Of a DNA stretch of 64,000 nucleotides, positions 2,169 to 59,304 are shown in pieces. The stretch comes from a virus, in IMG/VR virus record IMGVR_UViG_3300042560_001323, positions 1-64,000 of that record. One strand, given 5' to 3'. A program made the translations under genes and the position numbers. The stretch's first letter is position 1. Every line of letters starts with the position of its first letter. The notes beneath the pieces are model-generated. The model ran no database searches, had not been told where the DNA came from, and was given only the letters and a program-made list of their open reading frames with translations.

Positions 2169-2852
2169 GTTGTATATCATATCTCTATGTTTTGTTGTCC
2201 ATTCAAGATTAGAGTATCCTCCTTGTTCATATACCCTATCACATTCAATTTCATTATTAAGATAGTTCAACCAGGCAGTGCAAAAATTCATTGCAACTTC
2301 CCTCACACATCTCGGTGAGTTATCATTAAGTTCATAAACCAAAGAATACCCTTCAGAAAGAGGATAAGGTCTTACATACTTGTACTCGCCGCTTAACACT
2401 GTTCTCCTTGGGCTATTCTCTTCTTCTACAAGCTGTTGGTATAAACTATCAATAGTTAAGTCTTCAGGTGTAATATCGGGGAAGACATACTTTGCAAGTT
2501 CTTGTTCGATGAACTCTTCTTTATTCCAATTACTTTTTCTTTCTTTACCTAGTTCTTTGAGTAAATTCTCCATAGATTTTCGAGTTTCTTCCCCACGCTC
2601 GGCGCGTTGTTCAATATATTGCCTCCATACTGGCATTCTCTTCTTTATCATTTTCTCTTTATTGAATTTGGGAAACAAATGAATTGGCAGCTTATCTTCA
2701 ATGCCAATGGGCGACTGAGTTACTTCGTCAATATGATATCCGTTTCCAATGGTAAAGAAAATATGATTAAGAACACTTGCTGGACTAGGGAAAATACTAT
2801 GATATTCGCCCATTTGATATGAAATAAAATTGCAGATTGATTGAATTGTCAT
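2133..2852 (-). CDS. hypothetical protein, 239 aa
   Basis: Not recognised. It starts MTIQSICNFISYQMGEYHS and has a charged middle (KNLLKELGKERKSNWNKEEF) that may be helical. There is no signal peptide or transmembrane segment. It ends inside the palindrome at 2147-2168. Confidence 0.65.
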   Translation of the reverse strand: MTIQSICNFISYQMGEYHSIFPSPASVLNHIFFTIGNGYHIDEVTQSPIGIEDKLPIHLFPKFNKEKMIKKRMPVWRQYIEQRAERGEETRKSMENLLKELGKERKSNWNKEEFIEQELAKYVFPDITPEDLTIDSLYQQLVEEENSPRRTVLSGEYKYVRPYPLSEGYSLVYELNDNSPRCVREVAMNFCTAWLNYLNNEIECDRVYEQGGYSNLEWTTKHRDMIYNLTVQQLAPGHS

Positions 2853-2910
2853 TGAAGGTTTGGTTTTTGTTGTGGTTCTAGTGTATCACCTTAAGAGATG
2901 GCACATCTAT

Positions 2911-3309
2911 TCATTCCTTTTCAAGATAAAAGCCATACTTGGATACTTCCTCTTGAAGGTCTGATAACCTAGAGAAAGTGGTCAAATTCCTATAGAATTC
3001 ACTATTGGCAAATTCGTCAATCAAACGAATACATTCTTCTTTAGTTTGAAAATAGCGTCTGCACACAAGAAGACCATCATCAATGTTGCTAATGGTCATT
3101 TGAACACAGTGATCATATTCGACCCATTTATAGCCCCCATAGAAGTTGTAGCCAATCTTGAATTCTACAATTCCTGCACCATAATCTTGAAACTCAAGAT
3201 GACCAGTCCTGACAATTTTCACATAACGATAACCCTGTGCAGAATCATTGTAATGATGAACCTGGCTAACTGCATCTTCAATTAGTCTGTGTAGTTCGTA
3301 AAGATCCAT
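2911..3309 (-). CDS. hypothetical protein, 132 aa
   Basis: Not recognised. A soluble alpha/beta-looking protein starting MDLYELHRLIEDAVSQVHH. It is preceded by its own promoter module at 3340-3398. Confidence 0.65.
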   Translation of the reverse strand: MDLYELHRLIEDAVSQVHHYNDSAQGYRYVKIVRTGHLEFQDYGAGIVEFKIGYNFYGGYKWVEYDHCVQMTISNIDDGLLVCRRYFQTKEECIRLIDEFANSEFYRNLTTFSRLSDLQEEVSKYGFYLEKE

Positions 3310-3339
3310 TTGCTTTTTGTTAAGGTGTCGGACGTTGTT

Positions 3340-3398
3340 ATTCTACAGGATGGATTGGAGCAGTTATGGTTCTATTATGCCAGTTGCTCTAGTGGCAC
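3340..3398 (-). promoter_or_regulatory. promoter module for 2911-3309
   Basis: -10 TAGAAT (3340-3345), 31-nt gap, palindrome 3377-3398 at the end of the upstream gene. Confidence 0.6.
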
Positions 3399-3612
3399 AC
3401 ATTTTCTCAACTGTTTCCAACTCAATTCTTCCAGATTCAAGTTCATAAGGACTCGCCATATTAAGCCACAAAATGAATTGGTCACCAGTTAAATCTGTGA
3501 TGGGATTTACTTTAATAATTGAAGGGCGAATTGATTGGTAAAAACTACAATTCTCGAGCAATTTATCTATTTTGACTATCCGAATTTTATCTAACAATTC
3601 AAGGTCGGTCAT
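3364..3612 (-). CDS. hypothetical protein, 82 aa
   Basis: Not recognised. Starts MTDLELLDKIRIVKIDKLL. Its ATG overlaps the stop of the upstream gene as ATGA (3609-3612), which points to translational coupling. Confidence 0.6.
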   Translation of the reverse strand: MTDLELLDKIRIVKIDKLLENCSFYQSIRPSIIKVNPITDLTGDQFILWLNMASPYELESGRIELETVEKMCATRATGIIEP

Positions 3613-6265: not shown

Positions 6266-6646
6266 TTAAGAAAATTTTATGCTCCTTATTGCATCGGCTA
6301 GCGGAGTTTTTGGGCTTTCGGGCATACCCCACTTTTTAATTTCTCTGGCAGCTTCTCTAAGAATACAACCACTACTATACAAAGTTAGCTTGTCTCCTGC
6401 TGCCTTTAATAGTTCAATTGCATCTAAAGGAAACTCATTGTTTCTGAATATCGCATCCCATTCTCGGTTGGGGATATAATCACCTCGGGCAATTCGTTCT
6501 CTACCAATAGTCCAGCAGACAACACTAAGAACTCTAGGTGTAACAAATTGTCTATAGTATTGATTTAAGGGATGCTCAGAATTTAAAATTGATAAATCGG
6601 ATTTTGGTTGGGCCAGATAGTCTTTGCGGGTGATTAATGTTTTCAT
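6266..6646 (-). CDS. hypothetical protein, 126 aa
   Basis: Not recognised. Soluble, starting MKTLITRKDYLAQPKSDLS. Overlaps the upstream family gene by ATGA (6643-6646), so it is probably translated from the same message. Confidence 0.6.
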   Translation of the reverse strand: MKTLITRKDYLAQPKSDLSILNSEHPLNQYYRQFVTPRVLSVVCWTIGRERIARGDYIPNREWDAIFRNNEFPLDAIELLKAAGDKLTLYSSGCILREAAREIKKWGMPESPKTPLADAIRSIKFS

Positions 6647-6918
6647 TTCAGCGAGTTGAAGAATTTGATGAACTTCGGCAGATGTGAAGGATTCTTAATA
6701 TCTGCAATTAACTCATAAGTTGCCTCCCTTGCGTGAATCATCATATCACCATAAAGGCAGGCAAGTTCCTTCCATTCATCTTCGGTTATATCATCTAACC
6801 GCATCCAAAAGTCTAGGACTGCCTGAAAGTTTGGTCCTAGAAAATTCTGTGGACTTGTTAGGACTTCAGGGTTTTGAAGGCGGTTGGCGAAGTTTTGGTG
6901 AATTTTAGAGTAGCTCAT
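6643..6918 (-). CDS. LGPNY-family protein without Ala array, 91 aa
   Basis: Short family member: MSYSKIHQNFANRLQNPEVL, core LGPNFQAVLDFWMRLDDITEDEW, then a degenerate HAREATYELIADIKNP end with no AAxx array. It shows that the core can stand without the repeat. Start at 6918, because the upstream in-frame ATG at 6942 lacks the family N-terminus. Confidence 0.75.
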   Translation of the reverse strand: MSYSKIHQNFANRLQNPEVLTSPQNFLGPNFQAVLDFWMRLDDITEDEWKELACLYGDMMIHAREATYELIADIKNPSHLPKFIKFFNSLK

Positions 6919-6967
6919 AGGAACAAATGAGATGGTTAACAATTAAAAAAAAGGGGGTGTCAAATAA

Positions 6968-6996
6968 AGAATAGCAAGCCCGACAGAATTTGTCAA
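6968..6996 (-). promoter_or_regulatory. sigma70-like promoter
   Basis: TTGACA (6991-6996), 17-nt spacer, TATTCT (6968-6973). Twin of the promoter at 1418-1446, sharing about 38 bases upstream and across the -35. Confidence 0.75.
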
Positions 6997-7039
6997 GCCT
7001 GCAATGATAAGCAGTTCTTATGCTCGCTCAGAAGTTGAA

Positions 7040-7348
7040 TCAATCAAAAATTGGGCCAGCAACATCAAAAGTAACCCGGATTCTATTGCGATTAGCAATA
7101 CTAGCAGCCTCACCAAGAGCTGCACTCACATAAACCCAAAGAGAATCTTTCAGTCTTTCTGGTAGAGTAATGTAAACGCTCAAGCCATTACCAAAGAAAG
7201 TAAGGAGAGCCTTAGGATCATTACGGCTATTGTCCGCATTTTGTCAAAGTTCAATGATCCTCTCCATCTTTTCTTTGATGACAGAATCTCTAGAAAGATC
7301 CTTTTGAATGGAAACGGCAACGTGGGCAGGGTGAATCCAATTAGTCAT
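7040..7348 (-). pseudogene. hypothetical gene with one in-frame TGA
   Basis: From ATG 7346-7348 the frame reads MTNWIHPAHVAVSIQKDLSR to ...RIIEL, meets TGA at 7244-7246, then continues open for 67 codons (QNADNSRNDPKALLTFFGNG to VTFDVAGPIFD) to a TGA at 7040-7042. Both halves have ordinary protein composition and the frame is unbroken. Either a nonsense mutation or stop readthrough explains it. TGA is used as a normal stop throughout the window, so recoding of the whole genome is unlikely. Confidence 0.6.
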
Positions 7349-7380
7349 TTTGCTTTTGAGTAGGTGGGGTTGACTTTGAT

Positions 7381-7440
7381 AGTTTAGGCTATGGGTTGGT
7401 CGGTTTGTATGGTGGTGTGCCAGTTGTTCAGGTGTCCCAC
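7381..7440 (-). promoter_or_regulatory. promoter module for 7040-7348
   Basis: -10 TAAACT (7381-7386), 30-nt gap, palindrome 7417-7440. Confidence 0.6.
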
Positions 7441-7589
7441 ATACCTGGGCTAGTTGCATATTCACAACCGGCATCAAACATTGCCCTAGCAAACTTCAAA
7501 ATGTCTTCTTCTTTTCCTGAATAATCCATTACCGATACATTGCAGCAAAGATGTTCAGAGACAATTTCAAGGATTTCTTTATCACTAAT
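7428..7589 (-). CDS. small acidic protein with possible ATT start, 53 aa
   Basis: An open frame, SDKEILEIVSEHLCCNVSVM to YATSPGMWDT, lies directly after 7589-7786. There is no ATG at its head. The codon ATT (7587-7589) overlaps the upstream TAA where TAATG coupling would be expected, and AAGAGG lies a few bases before it. So either translation starts at ATT, or the ATG has mutated. The stop lies in the palindrome, as for neighbouring real genes. Confidence 0.4.
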   Translation of the reverse strand: MSDKEILEIVSEHLCCNVSVMDYSGKEEDILKFARAMFDAGCEYATSPGMWDT

Positions 7590-14196: not shown

Positions 14197-14980
14197 CCAA
14201 AACTCCAACTGGTAAATACTTTGTTTCTATTTTGATTAAACAAGAACTCAATCCAATACCCTCAACCGGCAAGGTAGTAGGTATTGATTTGGGTATTAAA
14301 GACTTGTTCATTCTTTCAAATGGTCAAGTTATCAACAACCCCAAGTGGTTTCGCAAGAACCAAGCGAAACTTAAAAAAGCCCAGAAACATTTAAGTAGGA
14401 AAAAGAAGGGAAGTAATCATTACAGCCGGCAACGAATTAAAGTTGCTAGGGTTCACGAATTCATTACCAATTCACGAACTTACTTTCTCCATAACGTGTC
14501 TACTGCCTTGGTTAGCACGTTTGACATGATAGTTCTTGAAGACTTGAATGTTTCTGGAATGCTAAAGAACCGTAAATTAGCGAAATCCATTAGCGATGCC
14601 TCGTGGTCTACTTTTGTTACTATGTTGAACTACAAGTGTAATTGGTATGGAAAAATGTTGGTTAAAATTAACCGATTCTTTCCTTCCAGTAAAACTTGTT
14701 CTAACTGTGGTCATAAAGAAGACAAGATGCGTCTTTCGGTTAGAGAATGGACTTGCCCCTCTTGCGGTTGTCAACACGATAGAGACTTGAATGCCTCTAT
14801 TAACATCTTAAAGGAAGGTTGGCGCAGCCTAACCGATAAAGAAATTTCATCGGCGGAGTACGCCGATTACGGGCGTGGAGCGGAATTAAGACTGAGCGGT
14901 GATTTTCACCACTTAGCATCTGCTGTGAAGCGTCTAAAAAATCAATAGAGTTTTTGACTCTTATTGGTTTTTGCTACTAT
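14197..14980 (+). mobile_element. tnpB: 5'-truncated TnpB element remnant (copy A)
   Basis: Carries the TnpB C-terminal two thirds from KTPTGKYFVSILIKQ to the stop at 14948, with the RuvC aspartate (GIDLGIKDLF), the LEDLNVSGM glutamate region, two CxxC pairs and HDRDLNASINIL. It then runs through the right end (ATTGGTTTTTGCTACTAT, ending 14980). The N-terminal domain and left end are missing, so it cannot be a working nuclease. The right-end RNA part may remain. Confidence 0.75.
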
Positions 14981-18287: not shown

Positions 18288-18761
18288 TCAGCCAGCCCAG
18301 GCATTATCGCCAGCGAGAATCCTGAAGCGTTCGGCAATATCCTCAACCGAATTGTAGGTCAACTCATCGAGACTCCTTTCTTCTGGTTCAAGAGTAGCAG
18401 GATCGGCGGTAATACCTGCAGCACGATTAGCAATAAGACGCTCAATACGAGCCCCAATGCTAGGTTCAGCCAGTTTAGTTTCAATGTATGCATCAATGTG
18501 GGCTTCAATCTCAGGCTTAACTTGACGGGCAACACCGTTAACAATAAGGGTTGAACCCATTCTGCTAACAATCCGGCGACAGATTTCGTTAACTCTATCC
18601 TCTTGACCGAGAACATTGGCAAACATTTCTTCGAGATGCTCATCGGTCAGAACAAGTTCTTTGCGAGTGCGAATCTCTTCAGTAAGAAGTTCTAGGCCAG
18701 CGAGCAGACTGTCAAACGTAACGAGTTTGTCAGCAATGGTGACTTTAGTAGTAGTAGACAT
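18288..18761 (-). CDS. hypothetical protein of the Ub-like operon, 157 aa
   Basis: MSTTTKVTIADKLVTFDSLL to ERFRILAGDNAWAG. Helical and acidic, with an AHIDAYIETKL helix pair. It starts 7 bases after the E1-like gene and is last in the operon. It is not a recognised part of ubiquitin-like systems; it could be a substrate or an accessory factor (inference from position only). Confidence 0.6.
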   Translation of the reverse strand: MSTTTKVTIADKLVTFDSLLAGLELLTEEIRTRKELVLTDEHLEEMFANVLGQEDRVNEICRRIVSRMGSTLIVNGVARQVKPEIEAHIDAYIETKLAEPSIGARIERLIANRAAGITADPATLEPEERSLDELTYNSVEDIAERFRILAGDNAWAG

Positions 18762-18768
18762 AGTTAAT

Positions 18769-19473
18769 TCAGGAAACGGAGGTTTTGAGGGTACGGACGT
18801 TGAAGTAGATGCCAGATTTTTTGGCTTCCAGTTTCCCATCCAGGAGATTTTGAATCACCGCCAAAGTAGCAGCGGCTGCCATAAAGTTGGCAGAGATAAG
18901 TTGCGGGCGCGATTCTTGAAGTCGGGCGCAACTACCAGCGTGAGGAATTTCATCCTCAGGTTGGATAATGTTTGGAAAAACATCCTTTGGATTCATTCCA
19001 ACATTCTCTCCATTGATACGACCAAACCAGAGAGTTTGACCGTGAACTTCTTCAATACCATCACTGTTGCCGGGAGTGATAAAGAAGAAGTCTTTCTCGG
19101 TGCAAGTAAGTTGAATCGCATCAATTACAGCAGCACGAGTTGCATCATTATCAACTGCTGCAATAATCAGTGGAGACTCACTTTCCTCCAGGAAAGGAAC
19201 AAAAGATGCCATCGTGATGTACTCACCAAATGCATTAACATTAGTGAGACCCATTGCACTACACATCTCAGCCATTGCATCAGCCTTATTCTGGCCAACG
19301 TGATCTGGTGTCATAAACTGTCGGCTTTGATTCTTATTCTCAAAGTCATCGCCATCAATGATTGTAACCATATTGTCGCAAGTTGCCGGATGATATTGAA
19401 GGGTTTTTACGAGAGGTGGAATCAAATAACCACCAGTACCACCAGTACCAATAACAAAGGTCTTGTCAAACAT
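18769..19473 (-). CDS. E1/ThiF-like adenylating enzyme, 234 aa
   Basis: Expected to adenylate the C-terminus of the ubiquitin-like protein. Rossmann nucleotide loop VIGTGGTGGYL (residues 7-17), acidic strand end IIDGDDFENKNQSRQFM (about 38-54), and a candidate catalytic cysteine in HAGSCARLQESRPQL (about 180). Closest in layout to ThiF proteins of PRTRC systems on plasmids. It has its own promoter module and follows the E2-like gene. Too short for a eukaryotic-type E1, but normal for the bacterial ThiF class. Confidence 0.8.
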   Translation of the reverse strand: MFDKTFVIGTGGTGGYLIPPLVKTLQYHPATCDNMVTIIDGDDFENKNQSRQFMTPDHVGQNKADAMAEMCSAMGLTNVNAFGEYITMASFVPFLEESESPLIIAAVDNDATRAAVIDAIQLTCTEKDFFFITPGNSDGIEEVHGQTLWFGRINGENVGMNPKDVFPNIIQPEDEIPHAGSCARLQESRPQLISANFMAAAATLAVIQNLLDGKLEAKKSGIYFNVRTLKTSVS

Positions 19474-19502: not shown

Positions 19503-19559
19503 ATCATAGAGCAAAGGCCGCCCTTAGGATTAGATGATGGACAGTCTCACAACTGTCCA
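19503..19559 (-). promoter_or_regulatory. promoter module for the E1-like gene
   Basis: -10 TATGAT (19503-19508), 29-nt gap, palindrome 19538-19559 (TGGACAG / CTGTCCA arms) overlapping the end of the E2-like gene. Confidence 0.6.
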
Positions 19560-20458
19560 ATCAGCTCTCCATTCTTGGTGACAAACCATTCCTTTTTACA
19601 GGAATCAGCCATCGTAAGATAACCAGGATATTTAACTCCTTCGTGCTCGAGAACGGTTTCGCGGAGAGGAAGAAGCATCATATATTTGGCATCTTTGATG
19701 GGTTTAAACCCGGCTGAAATCATCCAGAAAAATGCAGCAACGTTATCCTCGGCGTGGAGCATAAAAAGAGCATCTGCTTTTTCGGCAATAAAGTTATAGT
19801 TTTGAGCATACGTTCTAAAGAAATTGTCTGCGGTGATATCCGTTTTGACGATTTCATTATTCCGAACGAACTCGCGGATCTTAGTAAGATCGTTATTGAA
19901 AGGGGTTTCAAAGAACAACTTCACCATACTTTTAAGTGATTTTGGTTTCTCATTATTCCCCCAGCAAATAGAATGTGAACTATGGGTATTTGCAAGATGT
20001 TTGCGTTGCCTTGAGAATTTAATCCTATTATTAGAAACTTGTGTTGCCTGAAGGAATGCACTCTGGCGATCAGGTGAAACCTGAAATCTTTGATCCCGCG
20101 ACTTAATATTTAGCCCAATTTGAAAAACAGTAGGAGCAACATCAAATGTTACCCACTGTTCTTCGGGAAGTGTTAGTCCTTTGGGGCAGACAGTATCTGG
20201 ACCAATGCCATAATCACTCACCCAACGGCAACGACGACCATTCTCGTGAGTGCAATTGTGACAATTTGCTCGATAAAAGTCATCATAATCAGACCGCGAA
20301 CTTGGGTCTACTTGGTCTACTTTGGCAAAGTTTTCTTCCATATGTGCGGCTAAAAATAGCCGGTCTGGAGTAAAAGTGTAAGAAATTGCCGCAGTTTGTT
20401 GTGGAAGAAGATGTAGATTCCCCTTTGCGGGGGATTCAGAAAAGAGAACAGAATTCAT
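19547..20458 (-). CDS. E2-like (PRTRC-B type) protein, 303 aa
   Basis: The segment HSICWGNNEKPKSLKSMVKL (about 162-181), followed by FFETPFNNDLT, matches the 'CxGN ... FF.TPFN.DL' pattern I associate with PRTRC-B/E2-fold proteins. C165 is the candidate thioester cysteine. An insert at residues 66-91 has four cysteines (CHNC, C77, C91) that could bind zinc. It lies between the JAB and E1 genes, the normal order for such cassettes. The E2 call rests on this motif plus context; alignment would settle it. Confidence 0.65.
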   Translation of the reverse strand: MNSVLFSESPAKGNLHLLPQQTAAISYTFTPDRLFLAAHMEENFAKVDQVDPSSRSDYDDFYRANCHNCTHENGRRCRWVSDYGIGPDTVCPKGLTLPEEQWVTFDVAPTVFQIGLNIKSRDQRFQVSPDRQSAFLQATQVSNNRIKFSRQRKHLANTHSSHSICWGNNEKPKSLKSMVKLFFETPFNNDLTKIREFVRNNEIVKTDITADNFFRTYAQNYNFIAEKADALFMLHAEDNVAAFFWMISAGFKPIKDAKYMMLLPLRETVLEHEGVKYPGYLTMADSCKKEWFVTKNGELIGQL

Positions 20459-20551: not shown

Positions 20552-21969
20552 TCATTGTGACATTTCAATTTCAACTCCAATAAGAAAAGCAGCAAGTTGT
20601 TGCTTCATTTCTTCCAAGGCATCTGAATCATTGCGATTCTGCTTTAGATAATCCTCGAGCAAGTCAATAATGGGATAAATGTCTTCTGCAGTTGGAACAT
20701 CGTTAGATGCCCCCATTACATCAACAGTGCCATCATTGAAGTAGAACGGATCCCGATACTTATCTTGCCAAGTATCACGATATTCCCAATCTTCCCCATC
20801 ATTGATGCTATATACTTCATTATGATACCCATCATTGATGCCATATACTTCATTATGATACTCTTGATAAGAATTGTAAGTCTTTTTGGTTACAGGATTT
20901 TGCCTTGCTGGGGGAAGTTTCTTGAGAATGTTGCTCGTTGCAGCACGAACAGCCTGGCCACCCTTGAAACCATAGGTAACAGGAGTAGAGAAGTCAACAT
21001 ACTTGAGTACATTCTCGTGAAAGGTTACACCTTCTACGGGAGTTGCATCAATTAGATTATCATAATGGAGTTTGAAGCGGCGATTGTTACCAGTAACACT
21101 GGCAGCAATTTCGTACTTCATAGTCTTGGTATTAATCTTACCCACAGTAAGATGAATTCCAGGATCGCCTAGCTCATACTTATCATCAACGCCCGAGAAA
21201 AAGGCATTCATCGTATTCGTTTTGTTACCACACAAATTGATAAATTTGTGGGGTTAGGTCATTTCTGCCTAACTCTATGACTTTCACCATAGACCGGACT
21301 ATACCATACATAGAAGTATTTATCTATGCCCTCGGGTCTAGTCTCTGAACGCTCCCCATTTAAGGGTATCCGCTGCTGATTGCCCATTGTAATCCCCGAA
21401 CTTTTCAAACCATCACGCTTGTCGTTTCCAACTACGTTGTGGTATCAGGGCTTTAGGGTGTTCCAGCAATTTACCGAGGTTTTACTCGCACCACACAATT
21501 AATGCGAGTGGCTAGAACCTACAGGAACCCACCCTTCAGGAGGATAAGACGTAAATTCTTCGCCAGTAACAAGGTCGACACACTCATCAAAGTTATCAGC
21601 CTTGACGCTTGCGGCTGTTACTTTCTGTTTGGGAACAACTGCACGATATTGAGAAGGATTGGAAGCATTACGCAAGAAGCGAATAGATACTTCCATCTGT
21701 GAAGGAACCTTGTCTACAAAGTAGAAACAAAGTTTAATCCAACTGGACCAAAGATCAGCCGGAACGCGATGAATATCCTCCCTAACTTCAAAATGCCCAA
21801 GATGTTCTTTAGTAATGACAATGTTAGCCTCGGGGTCTGAGCAAGGTCGCAGATAACTAACCCACGGGCCTTTATAGACTTCCCAGGTTCCATCATCCGG
21901 TGTTCGTAGAATAGAAGGTGGAGCTTCAACCTTTGGAGATTCTTCAATTGTGAGAGTTTCTTCGGTCAT
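20552..21969 (-). CDS. JAB/JAMM deubiquitinase-like peptidase, split by a group I intron
   Basis: Exon 1 is 21502-21969 (from ATG, MTEETLTIEESPKVEAP) and ends with codons for GSSHSH. Exon 2 is 20552-21217 and begins NTMNAFFSGVDDKYELG. Joining them gives 377 residues with the complete metal site H-S-H-x7-S-x2-D. The likely motif glutamate lies in SQMEVSIRFLRN upstream. This zinc peptidase would cleave or process the ubiquitin-like partner. Unspliced message stops at TAA, the first intron codon. Near the C-terminus a YHNEVY-x-INDG unit is duplicated. Homologous to PRTRC-A proteins by motif and context. Confidence 0.85.
21218..21501 (-). other. group I self-splicing intron, 284 nt, no ORF
   Basis: The 5' splice site follows the U of CAU. 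The exon end ACUCGCAU pairs over 8 positions with the internal guide GUGCGAGU (near 21480-21487), including the expected final U-G wobble. Core elements are visible: P near 21461-21471 (AATTGCTGGAA), R at 21337-21349 (TTCAGAGACTAGA) and S at 21296-21305 (GGTATAGTCC). R and S pair as GACTA/TAGTC to form P7. The intron ends in G (21218). No homing endonuclease is encoded inside. Confidence 0.9.
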
Positions 21970-22778: not shown

Positions 22779-23975
22779 ATGCACTTAAAAGCATACAAGT
22801 TCAGGATTTATCCAGATAAAGAACAAGAAGTTTTACTAGCGAAGACTTTCGGTTGTTGCAGGTTTGTCTGGAACAAACTAGTTGAAAACTTCAATAATCA
22901 GTCAAAAGAAGTAGTTACAGAAAAGACATTAAAAGACACTCCAGAATTTGAGTTTCTTAAAGAAGTTTCAGCTTCTACACTTCAACAAAAGAGAAATGAC
23001 TTTATTGAGTTCAAGAAACAGTTTTTCAATAAGAAAAGAAAGGCCAAATTAGGACGGCCTTCTTTTAAGAAGAAATCAAATCGTCAGTCTTTTAGACTTC
23101 CCAATCAAAAGTTCAAGTTAGACCAAGAAAATTCAGTGGTTAGACTGGAGAAAATTGGTTGGGTTAAAGTTATTATTGACCGCGAAATCCCCGAAGATGC
23201 CGATTTTAGGAACATTACCGTTTCCAAAACTCCTACTGGTAAATATTTTGCTTCTATCCTAATCAAACAAGAACTCAATCCAATACCCTCTACTAGCAAG
23301 GTAGTAGGTATTGATTTGGGTATTAAAGACTTGTTCATTCTTTCAAATGGTCAAGTTATCAACAACCCCAAGTGGTTTCGCAAGAACCAAGCGAAACTTA
23401 AAAAAGCCCAGAAACATTTAAGTCGGAAAAAGAAGGGAAGTAATCGGTATAACCAGCAACGAATTAAAGTTGCTAAAGTACACGAATTCATTACTAATTC
23501 CCGAAATTACTTCCTTCATAACGTGTCTACTGCTTTAGTGAACACTTTTGATTTGATAGTTCTTGAAGACTTGAATGTTTCTGGAATGCTAAAGAACCGT
23601 AAATTAGCGAAATCCATTAGCGATGCCTCGTGGTCTACTTTTGTTACTATGTTGGAGTACAAGTGCAACTGGTATGGTAAAGTCTTGGTTAAGATTAACC
23701 GCTTCTTTCCTTCTAGTAAGACTTGTAGTTCTTGTGGACATAAGCAAGACAAGATGCCTCTTTCGGTTAGAGAATGGACTTGCCCCTCTTGCGGCTCAAA
23801 ACACGATAGAGATTTAAATGCCTCTATCAACATCTTAAAGGAAGGTTGGCGCAGTCTAACCGACCAAGAACTTTCATCTGCAGAGTATGCAGATTACGGG
23901 CGTGGAGCGGAATTAAGACTGAGCGGTGATTTTCACCCTTTAGCATCTGCTGTGAAGCGTTTAGGAAATCAATAG
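22779..23975 (+). CDS. tnpB: TnpB RNA-guided nuclease, 398 aa
   Basis: Full-length, with N-terminal OrfB helix-turn-helix region (MHLKAYKFRIYPDKEQE), RuvC aspartate in GIDLGIKDLFILSNG (about 178), glutamate in IVLEDLNVSGM, zinc knuckles CSSCGHK and CPSCGSKHDRD with the last catalytic aspartate, and LSSAEYADYGRGAELRL at the end. The family cuts DNA guided by an RNA made from the element's right end and the flanking sequence, and so favours retention of the element. Confidence 0.9.
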   Translation: MHLKAYKFRIYPDKEQEVLLAKTFGCCRFVWNKLVENFNNQSKEVVTEKTLKDTPEFEFLKEVSASTLQQKRNDFIEFKKQFFNKKRKAKLGRPSFKKKSNRQSFRLPNQKFKLDQENSVVRLEKIGWVKVIIDREIPEDADFRNITVSKTPTGKYFASILIKQELNPIPSTSKVVGIDLGIKDLFILSNGQVINNPKWFRKNQAKLKKAQKHLSRKKKGSNRYNQQRIKVAKVHEFITNSRNYFLHNVSTALVNTFDLIVLEDLNVSGMLKNRKLAKSISDASWSTFVTMLEYKCNWYGKVLVKINRFFPSSKTCSSCGHKQDKMPLSVREWTCPSCGSKHDRDLNASINILKEGWRSLTDQELSSAEYADYGRGAELRLSGDFHPLASAVKRLGNQ

Positions 23976-31027: not shown

Positions 31028-32224
31028 ATGCACTTAAAAGCATACAAGTTCAGGATTTATCCAAATAAAGAGCAGGAATTTATACTGGCAAAGACCTTCG
31101 GTTGTTGCAGGTTTGTTTGGAACAAACTCGTTGAAAACTTCAACAGTAACTCTAAGGAATTTATTAACGAAAAGACATTAAAAGACACTCCCGAATTTGA
31201 GTTTCTTAAAGAAGTTTCTGCTGCCGCCATTCAAGGAAAAAGAAGAGATTTTGACGAGTTCAAAAAACAGTTCTTTAACAAGAAAAGAAAGAAAAAACTA
31301 GGGAGACCCAAATACAAGAAAAAATCAAATCGGCAGTCTTTTGGATTACCCAATCAGAAGTTCAAGTTAGACCAAGAAAAGTCTTTACTAAGATTGGAGA
31401 AAATTGGTTGGGTTAAAGTTGTTATTGACCGTGAAATCCCGGAGGATGCAGATTTCAGGATCATCACGGTTTCTAAAACTCCAACAGGAAAGTATTTTGT
31501 TTCTATTCTGGTTAAGCAAGAACTCAATCCAATACCCTCTACTGGTAAGGTAGTAGGTATTGATTTGGGTATTAAAGACTTGTTCATTTTAAGTAATGGT
31601 CAAGCAATTAACAACCCCAAGTGGTTTCGCAAGAACCAAGCGAAACTCAAAAAAGCCCAGAAACATTTAAGCCGCAAGAAAAAAGGTAGTAATGGGTATA
31701 ACCGTCAACGAATTAAAGTTGCTGAAATACACGAATTCATTACTAATTCCCGAAATTACTTCCTTCATAGCGTGTCTACTGCTTTAGTGAACACTTTTGA
31801 TGTAATTTCGGTTGAAGACCTTAATGTTTCTGGAATGTTGAAGAACCGCAAGTTATCTAAATCAATCTCGGATGCTTCTTGGTCTACTTTTGTTACTATG
31901 TTGGAATACAAGTGCAATTGGTATGGTAAAGTCTTAGTTAAGATTAACCGATTCTTTCCTTCTAGTAAGACTTGTAGTTCTTGTGGTCATAAAGAAGACA
32001 AGATGCAGCTTTCGGTTAGGGAATGGACTTGTCCTTCTTGTGGTTCTCAACACGATAGAGACTTAAATGCCTCTATCAACATCTTAAAGGAAGGTTGGCG
32101 CGGTCTAACCGACCAAGAACTTTCATCGGCGGAGTACGTCGATTACGGACGTGGAGCGGAATTAAGACTAAATGGTGAAAATCATCATTTAGCATCTGCT
32201 ATGAAACTTCTAGAGAATCAATAG
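31028..32224 (+). CDS. tnpB: TnpB RNA-guided nuclease, 398 aa
   Basis: Intact, about as long as and closely similar to the copy at 22779, with GIDLGIKDLFILSNG, VEDLNVSGM (Val for Leu beside the glutamate), CSSCGHK, CPSCGSQHDRDLNAS. Most differences from copy B are scattered, so both copies may be active. Confidence 0.9.
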   Translation: MHLKAYKFRIYPNKEQEFILAKTFGCCRFVWNKLVENFNSNSKEFINEKTLKDTPEFEFLKEVSAAAIQGKRRDFDEFKKQFFNKKRKKKLGRPKYKKKSNRQSFGLPNQKFKLDQEKSLLRLEKIGWVKVVIDREIPEDADFRIITVSKTPTGKYFVSILVKQELNPIPSTGKVVGIDLGIKDLFILSNGQAINNPKWFRKNQAKLKKAQKHLSRKKKGSNGYNRQRIKVAEIHEFITNSRNYFLHSVSTALVNTFDVISVEDLNVSGMLKNRKLSKSISDASWSTFVTMLEYKCNWYGKVLVKINRFFPSSKTCSSCGHKEDKMQLSVREWTCPSCGSQHDRDLNASINILKEGWRGLTDQELSSAEYVDYGRGAELRLNGENHHLASAMKLLENQ

Positions 32225-37255: not shown

Positions 37256-38548
37256 TTATTCTGGCCCAGAGAGACGTTCTACTCCACCCATATATGGAAT
37301 CAATGCGGTAGGTAAGGTAACACTACCATCACTTTGTTGTCCATATTCTAATATTGCTGCCATTGTGCGACCAACCGCTAGACCGCTACCATTAAGAGTG
37401 TGTAACAATTGAACATTCTTGTTATCCCTAAAGCGAATAGATGAGCGGTTAGCCTGAAAATCAGTACAAGTGCTACAACTAGAAATCTCGCGGTAAGTAC
37501 CGGCGCCAGCCATCCAGACCTCTAAATCATAAGTGCGAGCAGCAGAAAATCCTAAATCTCCGCCACATAGTTCCATACGGCGATAAGGTAATTCTAGCGC
37601 CTCTAATATACCTTCAGCATCGCGGGTAAGCTGTTCGTGAGCTTCCAACGATTTTTCAGGATGACAGAACCAATACAACTCAACTTTATTAAACTGATGT
37701 AAGCGAATTAAACCTCTTGTATCTCTTCCATAAGAACCAGCCTCACGACGGAAGCAGGGTGTATGCGCCACATATTTTAAGGGTAGGCGATCTATATTAA
37801 TGATCTCGTCACGATGTAGGGCAGTGATAGGAACCTCGGCCGTGGGAGTAAGCCATAGATCATCGTCAGCACACTTAAAACTTTCATCCGCAAATTTGGG
37901 GAGTTGTCCAGAACCAGTCAGACTTGTGCTATTTACTAAAATTGGTGGCATAACCTCTTTATAACCATTGCCAGTATGACGATCTAGCATAAAAGAAATC
38001 AAAGCCCTTTCTAATTTAGCCCCTTGTCCTAATAAAGTCACAAAACGACTTTGTGCAATACGCACGGAACGTTCAACGTCAAGCAAACCCAAACGTTCAG
38101 CAATCTGCCAGTGTTCTTGTAAGGTTTCTCCAAGATTTGGTTTGCGGAGACTACCCCATACTTTCACTATTACATTGTCATCTTCTCCACTGCCGGTTGG
38201 AACTTGAGGATACGGTAAGTTGGGTATAGTGAGCAGTTGTTCTTGTAATTTCTGCTGTAGGCCATTCTCTTCTGCTATAAGATCGCTAACTTGTTGTTTA
38301 ATAGAACTTCCCCTCTCACGCAATTTTTGCAACTCTGGCTCATCACGATTAACTCCAAGTTGGACTTGTTGACCAATTTCTTTACCGATTGAATTACCTT
38401 CGGCTTGTAATTTTTCTCGTTTTTGTTGTATATCTTTTTCAGCAGTTGCAAGTTTTTGCAACTCTTTTAAGTCAATCTCTAATCCGCGAAGAGTCAATAA
38501 ATCACTAATAACTTTGGGGTTTTCGCGTAACATACGATAATTGAGCAT
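37256..38548 (-). CDS. serS: seryl-tRNA synthetase, 430 aa
   Basis: Complete class II enzyme of normal length. N-terminal coiled-coil arm (about 30-105) for tRNA-Ser, motif 2 with FRREAGSYGRDTRGLIRLHQ, and motif 3 GSGLAVGRTMAAILEYGQQ. Attaches serine to tRNA-Ser. Unusual in a phage-like context; likely taken from a cyanobacterial host. No tRNA-Ser gene was seen in the window. Confidence 0.9.
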   Translation of the reverse strand: MLNYRMLRENPKVISDLLTLRGLEIDLKELQKLATAEKDIQQKREKLQAEGNSIGKEIGQQVQLGVNRDEPELQKLRERGSSIKQQVSDLIAEENGLQQKLQEQLLTIPNLPYPQVPTGSGEDDNVIVKVWGSLRKPNLGETLQEHWQIAERLGLLDVERSVRIAQSRFVTLLGQGAKLERALISFMLDRHTGNGYKEVMPPILVNSTSLTGSGQLPKFADESFKCADDDLWLTPTAEVPITALHRDEIINIDRLPLKYVAHTPCFRREAGSYGRDTRGLIRLHQFNKVELYWFCHPEKSLEAHEQLTRDAEGILEALELPYRRMELCGGDLGFSAARTYDLEVWMAGAGTYREISSCSTCTDFQANRSSIRFRDNKNVQLLHTLNGSGLAVGRTMAAILEYGQQSDGSVTLPTALIPYMGGVERLSGPE

Positions 38549-39220: not shown

Positions 39221-39399
39221 TGTTTTCCTCCAGATTGCGATCGTAAGTCCCGTTCCTTCGGGCGGCAGTTCAGTTTTTAAGATTCTACTCTTAAAAATGA
39301 ACCTCGTCGTCCTACTTGCGTCCACTATTTACAAATAGAGGATGAACGAAAGAAGTTTGCACCTCTTACAACTTATGTAGCATAAAATTATCCACTAAC

Positions 39400-56988: not shown

Positions 56989-59304
56989 TCAGAAAGTGAC
57001 CCTGTTCCTGACGGTTTCAAAGTCTACAAGATTGTGTAACTGTCCATTTTCAAAGACAGTTTGAAGAGCAATCGGATAATCCAATGCACCTTCAACATCT
57101 GTTACAAAACCATTTTCTGTCTTATAAAGGGTTACACGACCTTTCTTGGATTCCTTACCGAAATCTGTGATTGGTTGCTTGTAAACATCTCGCCATTCAC
57201 CATTGACTCTTGCGGCAGAACATTTCATTGCAAACTTTAAGGTATCCCTATCAACTTGCTGAAGAAGTCCACCGCCTTGACCGAAGGTGATATTATCTGC
57301 CGAGAATCCTGCCGTGGTTGCACGATAGAGAATTCGGTCAATTGTTGCCTGGTTAATGCCATCACCTTGAATAACACTAACATTGTTAAGAACTTTATAG
57401 CCCTTATCGTTGATGGTATGCCCAAAGTGTTCGTCAAGAATTTGTAGGCATTCGGTTACAACTTGTGGGGGATGACCAGAGTTTCCGGTAACCATTATAC
57501 ATCTATTTCTCTTAACCAAAATCATTCCGGTTGGAACTTTTACGCAATGCACTGTTCCCTTATACATTACTTTAGTTTTGGAAATAGATTGTCCGCCAAC
57601 AAAAGGATTATCTAGAATATGGGCAGTATAGACATCGGAAAAATATTCTTTTCTTTTATCTTCTGATTTTGAAATTAGTATTCCTTTTCCGGCGGAAATT
57701 GCTATATACTCAACAATATCAATGTTTTCTTTGACCGTGGTATCATATTTAAATCTACCTCCATCCCTAATAGTTGAATCCCAGTGCTTTAATTCTTCAA
57801 TAAATTGTTCACACCAAAGACTATCTAAGTTTGAGATATCTACCCAGTTAAAAGTTTTTGAAATAACTTCATTCGAGTTAACCGGAATTCTAATGCAAAT
57901 TGTAGATTGACCTCCTCTAGAATTTAGATAATAAATTTTATACTCGTATTCTAAATGATTGAGAATGGTTAACAGTCTATCGTGCTTTCTTTCTTTTTGA
58001 AAGTTGAACTCAATTATAATTGAAGAAGAATTAACCTTTTTAATACAACCATCAGCTTGCAGGGCGATTAAAAATCGTTCGTGCCAAGTCAATTGTTTAC
58101 CGTTTGTTTGAGATTTTGCCGCCCTTATTTTCTTATACTGATAATTGTTTTGTTTATACTCGGAAGCCTCTTTAATTTGTATTCCCCTTTCAGGATTAAT
58201 ATAAACCATTCTATGATTTGGTGTAACTAATAAATCTACTTTTCCGTGAAAATCACGAAATTCATACATTTCACCTTCATAAGGCTGATTTATGATTTCT
58301 AATGGCTTAACAAATTCGTAAGTTTGGTCTTCTTTTACTTGTGCAACTAAATCTTGATCAGTTAATTCGGTAAAAAACTTCCAACCCGATGGGGTTAAAA
58401 TTTGACTCTTACTATCCAGGCAATCTGGTCGAATTCCGATGACTGCACCAGAATTGATAACTTCATCTTTCAACTCTGTTCCCCAGAGTTTACTACAGGC
58501 ATCATAGATGTTGTAACTATCACTAACAGCGGCTAGAACTGCTCCAGGTTTACCGAAGAGTTTTAGCATATTGCGAAAAGCCTCAACCTCGTTTTCTCTA
58601 CCCCAAGATGTAACAGTGCTATGTTCCATAGCGGGAATAGAGAGCCCCGCCATCTTGGCATCATAATACCTTCTTGCATAGAGAAGGGCTGCTACGGTAT
58701 CAGTTCCTTTGAAGTTGACAAGATGGGCTGCTCCACCAATGCCAGCAGATTCATAAGAAGAGACTCCTCTCGATCCAAAATCGTGTAACTTGAAGTCAAT
58801 AAGTTCTGGAGTTCCCGTTTTATGAAGATACTCCAAGATAATTTTCTTACTTGTGTAAGAATTCGTACAGACTGTCGTTGGATACCATACCGCTCGTTGC
58901 AATGCCGCCTCCAAGAAAGAACTTAACCACCAGCACTTGGGGTTAGTTGGTTCAATCGTAACAAGAACATTCTTCGTTGGAACAACTGTTCCTTCTGGAA
59001 CTGCCTTGATTATAACTGGAAGCCAGCCATTATGCTCTTTGAGAATGTATTCCCAAAGTTCACGGTAGAATGGCTCACCGTGAGCAGTGATAATCTCGTC
59101 TGCAACATCAATGTCTTCTTGTGTGATTGGCTTAGACATATATTCCATGAGGAACATCTGTAAACCAAAGAACACAGTTTCATCCCATTTACCACCTCTA
59201 CTCTCAATGTAAGAGTAGACGCTTTCAGTTCCAGGAGGATACTGATAAGGTTGGGAATACTTGTAGGAATCAGCGTTGAGCAGAAGATTTTTAAAAAGGT
59301 CCAT
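56989..59304 (-). CDS. nampt: nicotinamide phosphoribosyltransferase with intein, 771 aa (457 after splicing)
   Basis: Makes NMN from nicotinamide and PRPP. The spliced protein has normal NAMPT length, with FGSRGVSSYESAGIGGAAHL, MAGLSIPAMEHSTVTSWG (catalytic His near 228) and, after splicing, GIRPD-SGHPPQVVTECL, the phosphate-binding RPDSG motif. The intein (residues 295-608) lies between that Asp and Ser, so no activity is expected before splicing. Strong AAGGAG and a special hairpin precede the start. With the NMN adenylyltransferase gene it completes nicotinamide to NAD+. Confidence 0.9.
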   Translation of the reverse strand: MDLFKNLLLNADSYKYSQPYQYPPGTESVYSYIESRGGKWDETVFFGLQMFLMEYMSKPITQEDIDVADEIITAHGEPFYRELWEYILKEHNGWLPVIIKAVPEGTVVPTKNVLVTIEPTNPKCWWLSSFLEAALQRAVWYPTTVCTNSYTSKKIILEYLHKTGTPELIDFKLHDFGSRGVSSYESAGIGGAAHLVNFKGTDTVAALLYARRYYDAKMAGLSIPAMEHSTVTSWGRENEVEAFRNMLKLFGKPGAVLAAVSDSYNIYDACSKLWGTELKDEVINSGAVIGIRPDCLDSKSQILTPSGWKFFTELTDQDLVAQVKEDQTYEFVKPLEIINQPYEGEMYEFRDFHGKVDLLVTPNHRMVYINPERGIQIKEASEYKQNNYQYKKIRAAKSQTNGKQLTWHERFLIALQADGCIKKVNSSSIIIEFNFQKERKHDRLLTILNHLEYEYKIYYLNSRGGQSTICIRIPVNSNEVISKTFNWVDISNLDSLWCEQFIEELKHWDSTIRDGGRFKYDTTVKENIDIVEYIAISAGKGILISKSEDKRKEYFSDVYTAHILDNPFVGGQSISKTKVMYKGTVHCVKVPTGMILVKRNRCIMVTGNSGHPPQVVTECLQILDEHFGHTINDKGYKVLNNVSVIQGDGINQATIDRILYRATTAGFSADNITFGQGGGLLQQVDRDTLKFAMKCSAARVNGEWRDVYKQPITDFGKESKKGRVTLYKTENGFVTDVEGALDYPIALQTVFENGQLHNLVDFETVRNRVTF
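57481..58422 (-). mobile_element. intein with LAGLIDADG-type endonuclease region
   Basis: 314 codons. Starts with Cys (CLDSKSQILTPSGWKFF), has block-B-like LLVTPNHRMVY, an endonuclease motif FLIALQADGCIK (about residues 411-422) and a weaker second one (EYIAISAGKGILI), and ends VTGN with Ser as first extein residue. Splicing residues are all present, so it is probably active. It inserts in the most conserved codons of the host gene. Confidence 0.9.

Follow-up and report, generated by a model that had tools for sequence, protein, structure and literature searches.

A predicted group I intron within the JAMM-motif codons of a phage JAB peptidase gene and its patchy occurrence among related phages

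The window (64,000 nucleotides, positions 1 to 64,000 of IMG/VR record IMGVR_UViG_3300042560_001323) is part of a 243,166-base virus record with tail-fibre genes, and the attribution of this DNA to a phage in an earlier sequence-only reading holds. The same record also contains PhotoRC-II RNAs and the N-terminal exon of psbA, which, together with the tail-fibre genes and the record length, indicate that the genome is probably that of a jumbo cyanophage. The minus strand carries a cassette of genes for a ubiquitin-like (Ub-like) protein, a JAB/JAMM peptidase, an E2-like protein, a ThiF/E1-like adenylyltransferase, and a small protein (Table 1). This order is kept in the related contigs L013, L014, L030, L039, and L042, and L032 has at least the first four genes. 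Among phages, the last Gly of the Ub-like protein is invariant and is followed by a variable tail of 0 to 2 residues, which suggests that the JAB protein may trim it.

Table 1. Cassette genes and intron elements in the window
Feature	Position	Strand	Basis and remarks
Ub-like protein, 89 aa	22045..22314	-	AlphaFold model resembles SUMO/MoaD-type beta-grasp folds; syntenic homologues
Exon 1, JAB/JAMM peptidase gene	21502..21969	-	Translation; 156 aa, ends ...GSSHSH; aligns to intron-less homologues
5' exon half of P1, ACUCGCAU	21502..21509	-	Recoded synonymous codons TCG CAT; perfect in 3 carriers
Group I intron (predicted)	21218..21501	-	RF00028 match, empty allele L015, fold z -3.75; starts UAA, ends G
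P10 half in guide	21493..21496	-	GUGU (GUAU in L014); pairs with exon 2 nt 2-5, AUAC (ACAC in L013)
Internal guide, intron half of P1, GUGCGAGU	21484..21491	-	U.G at splice site
Exon 2	20552..21217	-	Translation; NTMNAFFSGVD... to stop; brings JAMM S and D
E2-like protein (Prok-E2_D)	19547..20458	-	PF14460 17.6 bits, under cut-off 25; syntenic
ThiF/E1-like adenylyltransferase	18769..19473	-	PF00899 43.6 bits; PRTRC_ThiF 56.5 bits, under cut-off 144.75
Fifth conserved cassette gene, small protein	18288..18839	-	Weak homologues at same position in relatives

The JAB/JAMM gene is interrupted between the codons for HSH and those for NTMNAFFSGVD. Exon 1 ends in CAC TCG CAT (HSH) and exon 2 begins with AAT ACG ATG; removal of 21501-21218 gives a continuous frame of 377 aa (...GSSHSH-NTMNAFFSGVD...) in which HxHx7Sx2D is intact (HSH-NTMNAFF-S-GV-D). 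As had been proposed from the letters alone, the JAMM motif is complete only once the exons are joined, with HSH from exon 1 and x7-S-x2-D from exon 2. The Pfam Prok-JAB (PF14464) match crosses the exon junction; the window protein scores 21.8 bits against a cut-off of 25, its sister protein in L042 scores 27.5 bits, above the cut-off, and the profile matches 11 of 12 homologues at an E value of ≤0.01. Sequence-profile searches of the PDB returned chance matches only, and it was fold comparison that proved informative: the AlphaFold model of the L042 protein (mean pLDDT, 68.7) aligns with the bacterial Ubl-deubiquitinase 8tyx over 144 residues (Z, 10.9) and also with Pyrococcus JAMM1 and AMSH. 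The window protein appears to be a JAMM-fold relative, and the joined protein is predicted to be an active peptidase. With regard to the suggested comparison to the PRTRC-A and JAB families, kinship with the JAMM fold is likely, but the NCBIfam cut-off does not admit the protein as a PRTRC-A equivalog (TIGR03735, 22.4 bits against a cut-off of 101.8). Since its scores fall short of the PRTRC cut-offs in NCBIfam, we call it only “PRTRC-like.”

The 284-nt insert has the features of a group I intron. The Rfam covariance model RF00028 matches the minus strand at 21511-21275 over its full length, with 54.8 bits (E = 3.7e-11) against a gathering score of 50, as the sequence-only reading had anticipated, and the fold of the intron RNA beats all 100 shuffles (z = -3.75). 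Group I hallmarks are present: P1 places a U.G pair at the 5' splice site, a P10 can form, and the last intron nucleotide is G. The boundaries, pinned by the empty allele L015, are exactly those first proposed, down to the TAA stop codon directly after exon 1. The postulated P1 of 8 pairs closing in U.G is seen as ACUCGCAU/GUGCGAGU, and the reported lack of an endonuclease is upheld, as the longest intron open reading frame (ORF) encodes only 49 aa. An IStron (group I intron plus transposon) was ruled out because there is no tnpA or tnpB ORF within the intron, a nearby TnpB gene (22779-23975, opposite strand) falling outside it. A second copy of the intron was not found elsewhere in the same genome, and an Rfam search found no riboswitch or other regulatory RNA within it. 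Splicing is predicted from these features.

Other interrupted genes and structured RNAs occur in the same record. The psbA N-terminal exon (L001 1440-1910; record C1:227320-227556, minus strand) encodes 62 aa (...AAPPVDI). One group I intron (66.2 bits), with a long G run within it, comes next, and beyond it a D1-like C-terminal tail, DLAAVSTQEIALKAPTIG, is all that remains, without the middle of D1; this locus may reflect either recombination between two introns or an assembly artefact. The anticodon of a phage tRNA-Arg(UCU) is interrupted after U34 by a group I intron of ∼209 nt (55.2 bits; L002 about 1476-1765, reverse complement; record C1:116376-116570, minus strand), and ARAGORN detects this tRNA only with the intron removed. 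A 2014 review describes phage introns as known only in protein genes (PMC3984707). At 56989-59304 (minus strand), a nicotinamide phosphoribosyltransferase gene has an apparent intein inside the conserved IRPD|SG motif (junctions ...IRPD-CLDSKSQ...MVTGN-SGHPP), which makes it the genome's second active site to require splicing, there at the protein level. The window also contains a glutamine riboswitch (37.6 bits; 39247-39350, minus strand), a complete phage-encoded seryl-tRNA synthetase gene (37256-38548, minus strand), and, in 4141-42000, about a dozen paralogues with a common 15-letter motif followed by alanine-rich repeats of the AA-x-DAA type. Elsewhere, tmRNA-like genes lie on phage contigs L065 (835-1093; cyano_tmRNA, 104.8 bits) and L044 (1-323; permuted tmRNA, 86.8 bits).

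Relatives were found in IMG/VR via alignments of exon parts, whereas searches of IMG/VR with single JAB, E1, or E2-like proteins found nothing; at the DNA level there was no match to plasmids and no near match to phages. The same intron lies at the identical nucleotide in two further IMG/VR contigs, L013 (RF00028, 59.2 bits) and L014 (63.3 bits). Against these 3 carriers, the motif is uninterrupted in ∼26 contigs, some of them near-identical (L015, L030-L050, L064, L065, L072, and L073), and it is also continuous in Vibrio phage D69, Salmonella phage Arash, Bacillus phage KLEB27-3, and MT835919. GSSHSHNT reads straight through in the intron-less alleles L015, L030, L042, L073, and others. L015, which is continuous at CAC AGC CAC|AAC ACC ATG, is 90.4% identical in coding DNA to the carrier L014. 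No homologue was found with the ∼95 extra residues at this site that the sequence-only reading had named in advance as evidence against an intron, and the intron-less relatives prove the insertion point of the predicted intron exactly.

The exon codons around the junction differ between occupied and empty alleles. All 3 carriers share CAC TCG CAT|AAY ACG ATG, with exon ACUCGCAU pairing with guide GUGCGAGU over all 8 nt (last pair, U.G), while the tabulated intron-less relatives have 1 to 3 P1 mismatches in all but the distant L049; the intron-less L064, which is outside that table, has the similar codons CAT TCG CAT. P1 energy is -12.2 kcal/mol with carrier codons and -3.6 to -6.2 kcal/mol with those of L042 and L015. 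Of the 18 nt that flank the junction (9 nt per side), 6 are different between L014 and L015, each change being synonymous, compared to 9% elsewhere (binomial p = 0.004). P10 covaries, being GUGU/ACAC in L013 and GUAU/AUAC in L014. It appears that the intron came with, or imposed, compatible codons and left the protein unchanged. Since P1 with L015-type sequence is weak (-6.2 versus -12.2 kcal/mol), direct reverse splicing into such an allele is unlikely, and homologous transfer with short co-conversion would best fit these patterns, although constraint from P1 and P10, instead of co-conversion, could account for the short stretch of flank identity.

The carriers are not a single lineage. Intron identities (window-L013, 93.3%; window-L014, 92.9%; L013-L014, 97.5%) far exceed the corresponding coding identities (57.5%, 58.1%, and 81.1%). 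In the protein tree, the window pairs with the intron-less L073 (96/99) and L014 pairs with the intron-less L015 (98/96); monophyly of the carriers is rejected, the constraint costing 123.7 log-likelihood units (AU p = 1.6e-90). High identity among the introns could be due partly to structural constraint, but with introns far more alike than coding sequences and carriers that do not form a clade, we conclude that the intron has moved horizontally.

The same motif is interrupted in Acinetobacter phage vB_AbaM_ME3 (KU935715, L008), whose annotated PRTRC_A protein ends after VVVMDIH. SHVNMSAFFSSV (36 nt) follows 668 nt later and DLKDETATRYFGVIGKI... after a further 1327 nt; the joined segments encode 371 aa, and the alignment of this protein spans its full length. 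The ME3 gene appears to carry two introns in its JAMM motif (H|SHVNMSAFFSSV|D), which have no annotation in GenBank. A terminal G is present in each insert. Intron 2 reaches 81.0 bits and holds endonuclease-like ORFs, and intron 1 reaches 29.2 bits, under the Rfam cut-off. Intron 1 (L008 5220-5887) also holds tRNA-Met(CAT), tRNA-Leu(TAG), and a third tRNA-like sequence. If both introns splice, the three metal ligands (His, His, and Asp) would lie on three separate exons, and skipping of the 36-nt middle exon would leave an in-frame protein without a metal site. As introns cut such genes precisely at the diagnostic motif, annotation can overlook or truncate phage JAMM genes, as in ME3. All three insertion positions known for the family lie inside a 36-nt stretch of a gene of ∼1.1 kb; the probability of this for three random points, calculated post hoc, is ∼0.003.

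We propose that the insert in the JAMM site is an ORF-less, self-splicing group I intron gained by the phage JAB gene through homologous transfer, a reading to which we assign a probability of about 0.9. The ribozyme guide would form P1 with the 8 nt at the end of exon 1 and P10 with exon 2, and cutting after the U of the U.G pair followed by exon ligation would restore HSH-x7-S-x2-D. The gene probably acquired the intron from an intron-bearing relative in a transfer that would have brought ∼9 nt of compatible exon codons per side. An endonuclease acting in trans may have assisted this transfer (collaborative homing), a route on which we would place about an even bet. In our view, active-site codons harbor the intron because they offer the most conserved target DNA.

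Candidates for such a partner were sought near the cassettes. In L042, two homing-endonuclease-like genes lie within the cassette (2520-3407 and 6508-7506; phrog_314), and a gene beside the cassette in L014 (3307-4362) has an N terminus like theirs but no homing-endonuclease match of its own. In the window, no endonuclease was found within 5 kb of the intron, and no homologue of the L014 candidate was found in the whole viral record. The window has three copies of TnpB, one of them truncated (14232-14948, 22779-23975, and 31028-32224, plus strand), with the common right end TTGGTTTTTGYTACTAT. TnpB was rejected as a homing agent, as the flanks at the right ends of the 3 copies, judged by eye, are unlike the JAB site.

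Different accounts of the insert must be weighed against intron gain by homologous transfer. The window is a single metagenomic contig, but L013 and L014, two more independent contigs with diverged exons, share the intron down to the nucleotide of insertion, which makes an assembly artefact exceedingly improbable. It is also very unlikely that the intron is degenerate and the gene broken, yielding two half-proteins or nothing: translation of a C-terminal piece could begin from an in-frame ATG or from a TTG, which lie at or close to the beginning of exon 2, yet both exons are open and match homologues, P1, P10, the core, and the terminal G are kept in three phages, and intron and exon codons covary.

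Another idea is that splicing is a switch, with the intron kept or removed according to conditions and the JAMM enzyme made at certain times only. Unspliced mRNA would stop at the first intron codon and give a 156-aa protein without the catalytic Asp, and introns recur in the JAMM motif of the unrelated phage ME3. Against this, most relatives are intron-less yet have the gene in the same cassette, which therefore needs no switch, no regulatory RNA, riboswitches included, was detected in the intron, and the distribution fits a mobile parasite; we consider a switch improbable. The earlier suggestion that the enzyme depends on RNA splicing conditions holds solely in the trivial sense that splicing is needed. 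As regards regulation, no finding apart from the intron's position points to it, and the patchy distribution of a mobile element favors a constitutively splicing parasite. JAMM-motif insertions occupy at least three separate positions in two unrelated phage groups, and it is conceivable, though doubtful, that splicing elements repeatedly settle in this motif of phage Ub-like cassettes and that their splicing gates deubiquitinase-type activity by time or environment. The close relatives provide matched intron-plus and intron-minus alleles, with which homing, exon recoding, and splicing cost could be tested cleanly.

According to established work, phage introns prefer conserved protein genes since conserved DNA is what endonucleases target, and in collaborative homing an intron that lacks an ORF is served by a free-standing endonuclease (PMC3984707, PMC6083498). 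In the literature, we found no report of an intron in such a JAMM gene or of a group I intron with PRTRC. In a close parallel, the ME3 PRTRC_A gene also has apparent group I introns in its JAMM motif, but two of them, at other positions and with a 36-nt middle exon. Like the psbA intron of cyanophage S-PM2, for which F-CphI is the free-standing endonuclease (PMC6083498), the JAB intron interrupts a conserved protein gene, is sporadic among relatives, and lacks an internal endonuclease; it differs in the gene occupied, in its place inside catalytic metal-ligand codons, and in that no partner endonuclease was found. As a predicted self-splicing type in a conserved phage enzyme, it also resembles the introns of Twort nrdE and the SPO1 DNA polymerase gene (PMC3984707), and its core is 74% identical to the Twort nrdE intron region over ∼100 nt (BLAST), but unlike in Twort and SPO1, the host gene encodes a JAMM peptidase of a Ub-like cassette. 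Phage group I introns are now extended to an enzyme of a Ub-like system, and the JAB intron is a clear further example of mobile elements favoring conserved active-site DNA.
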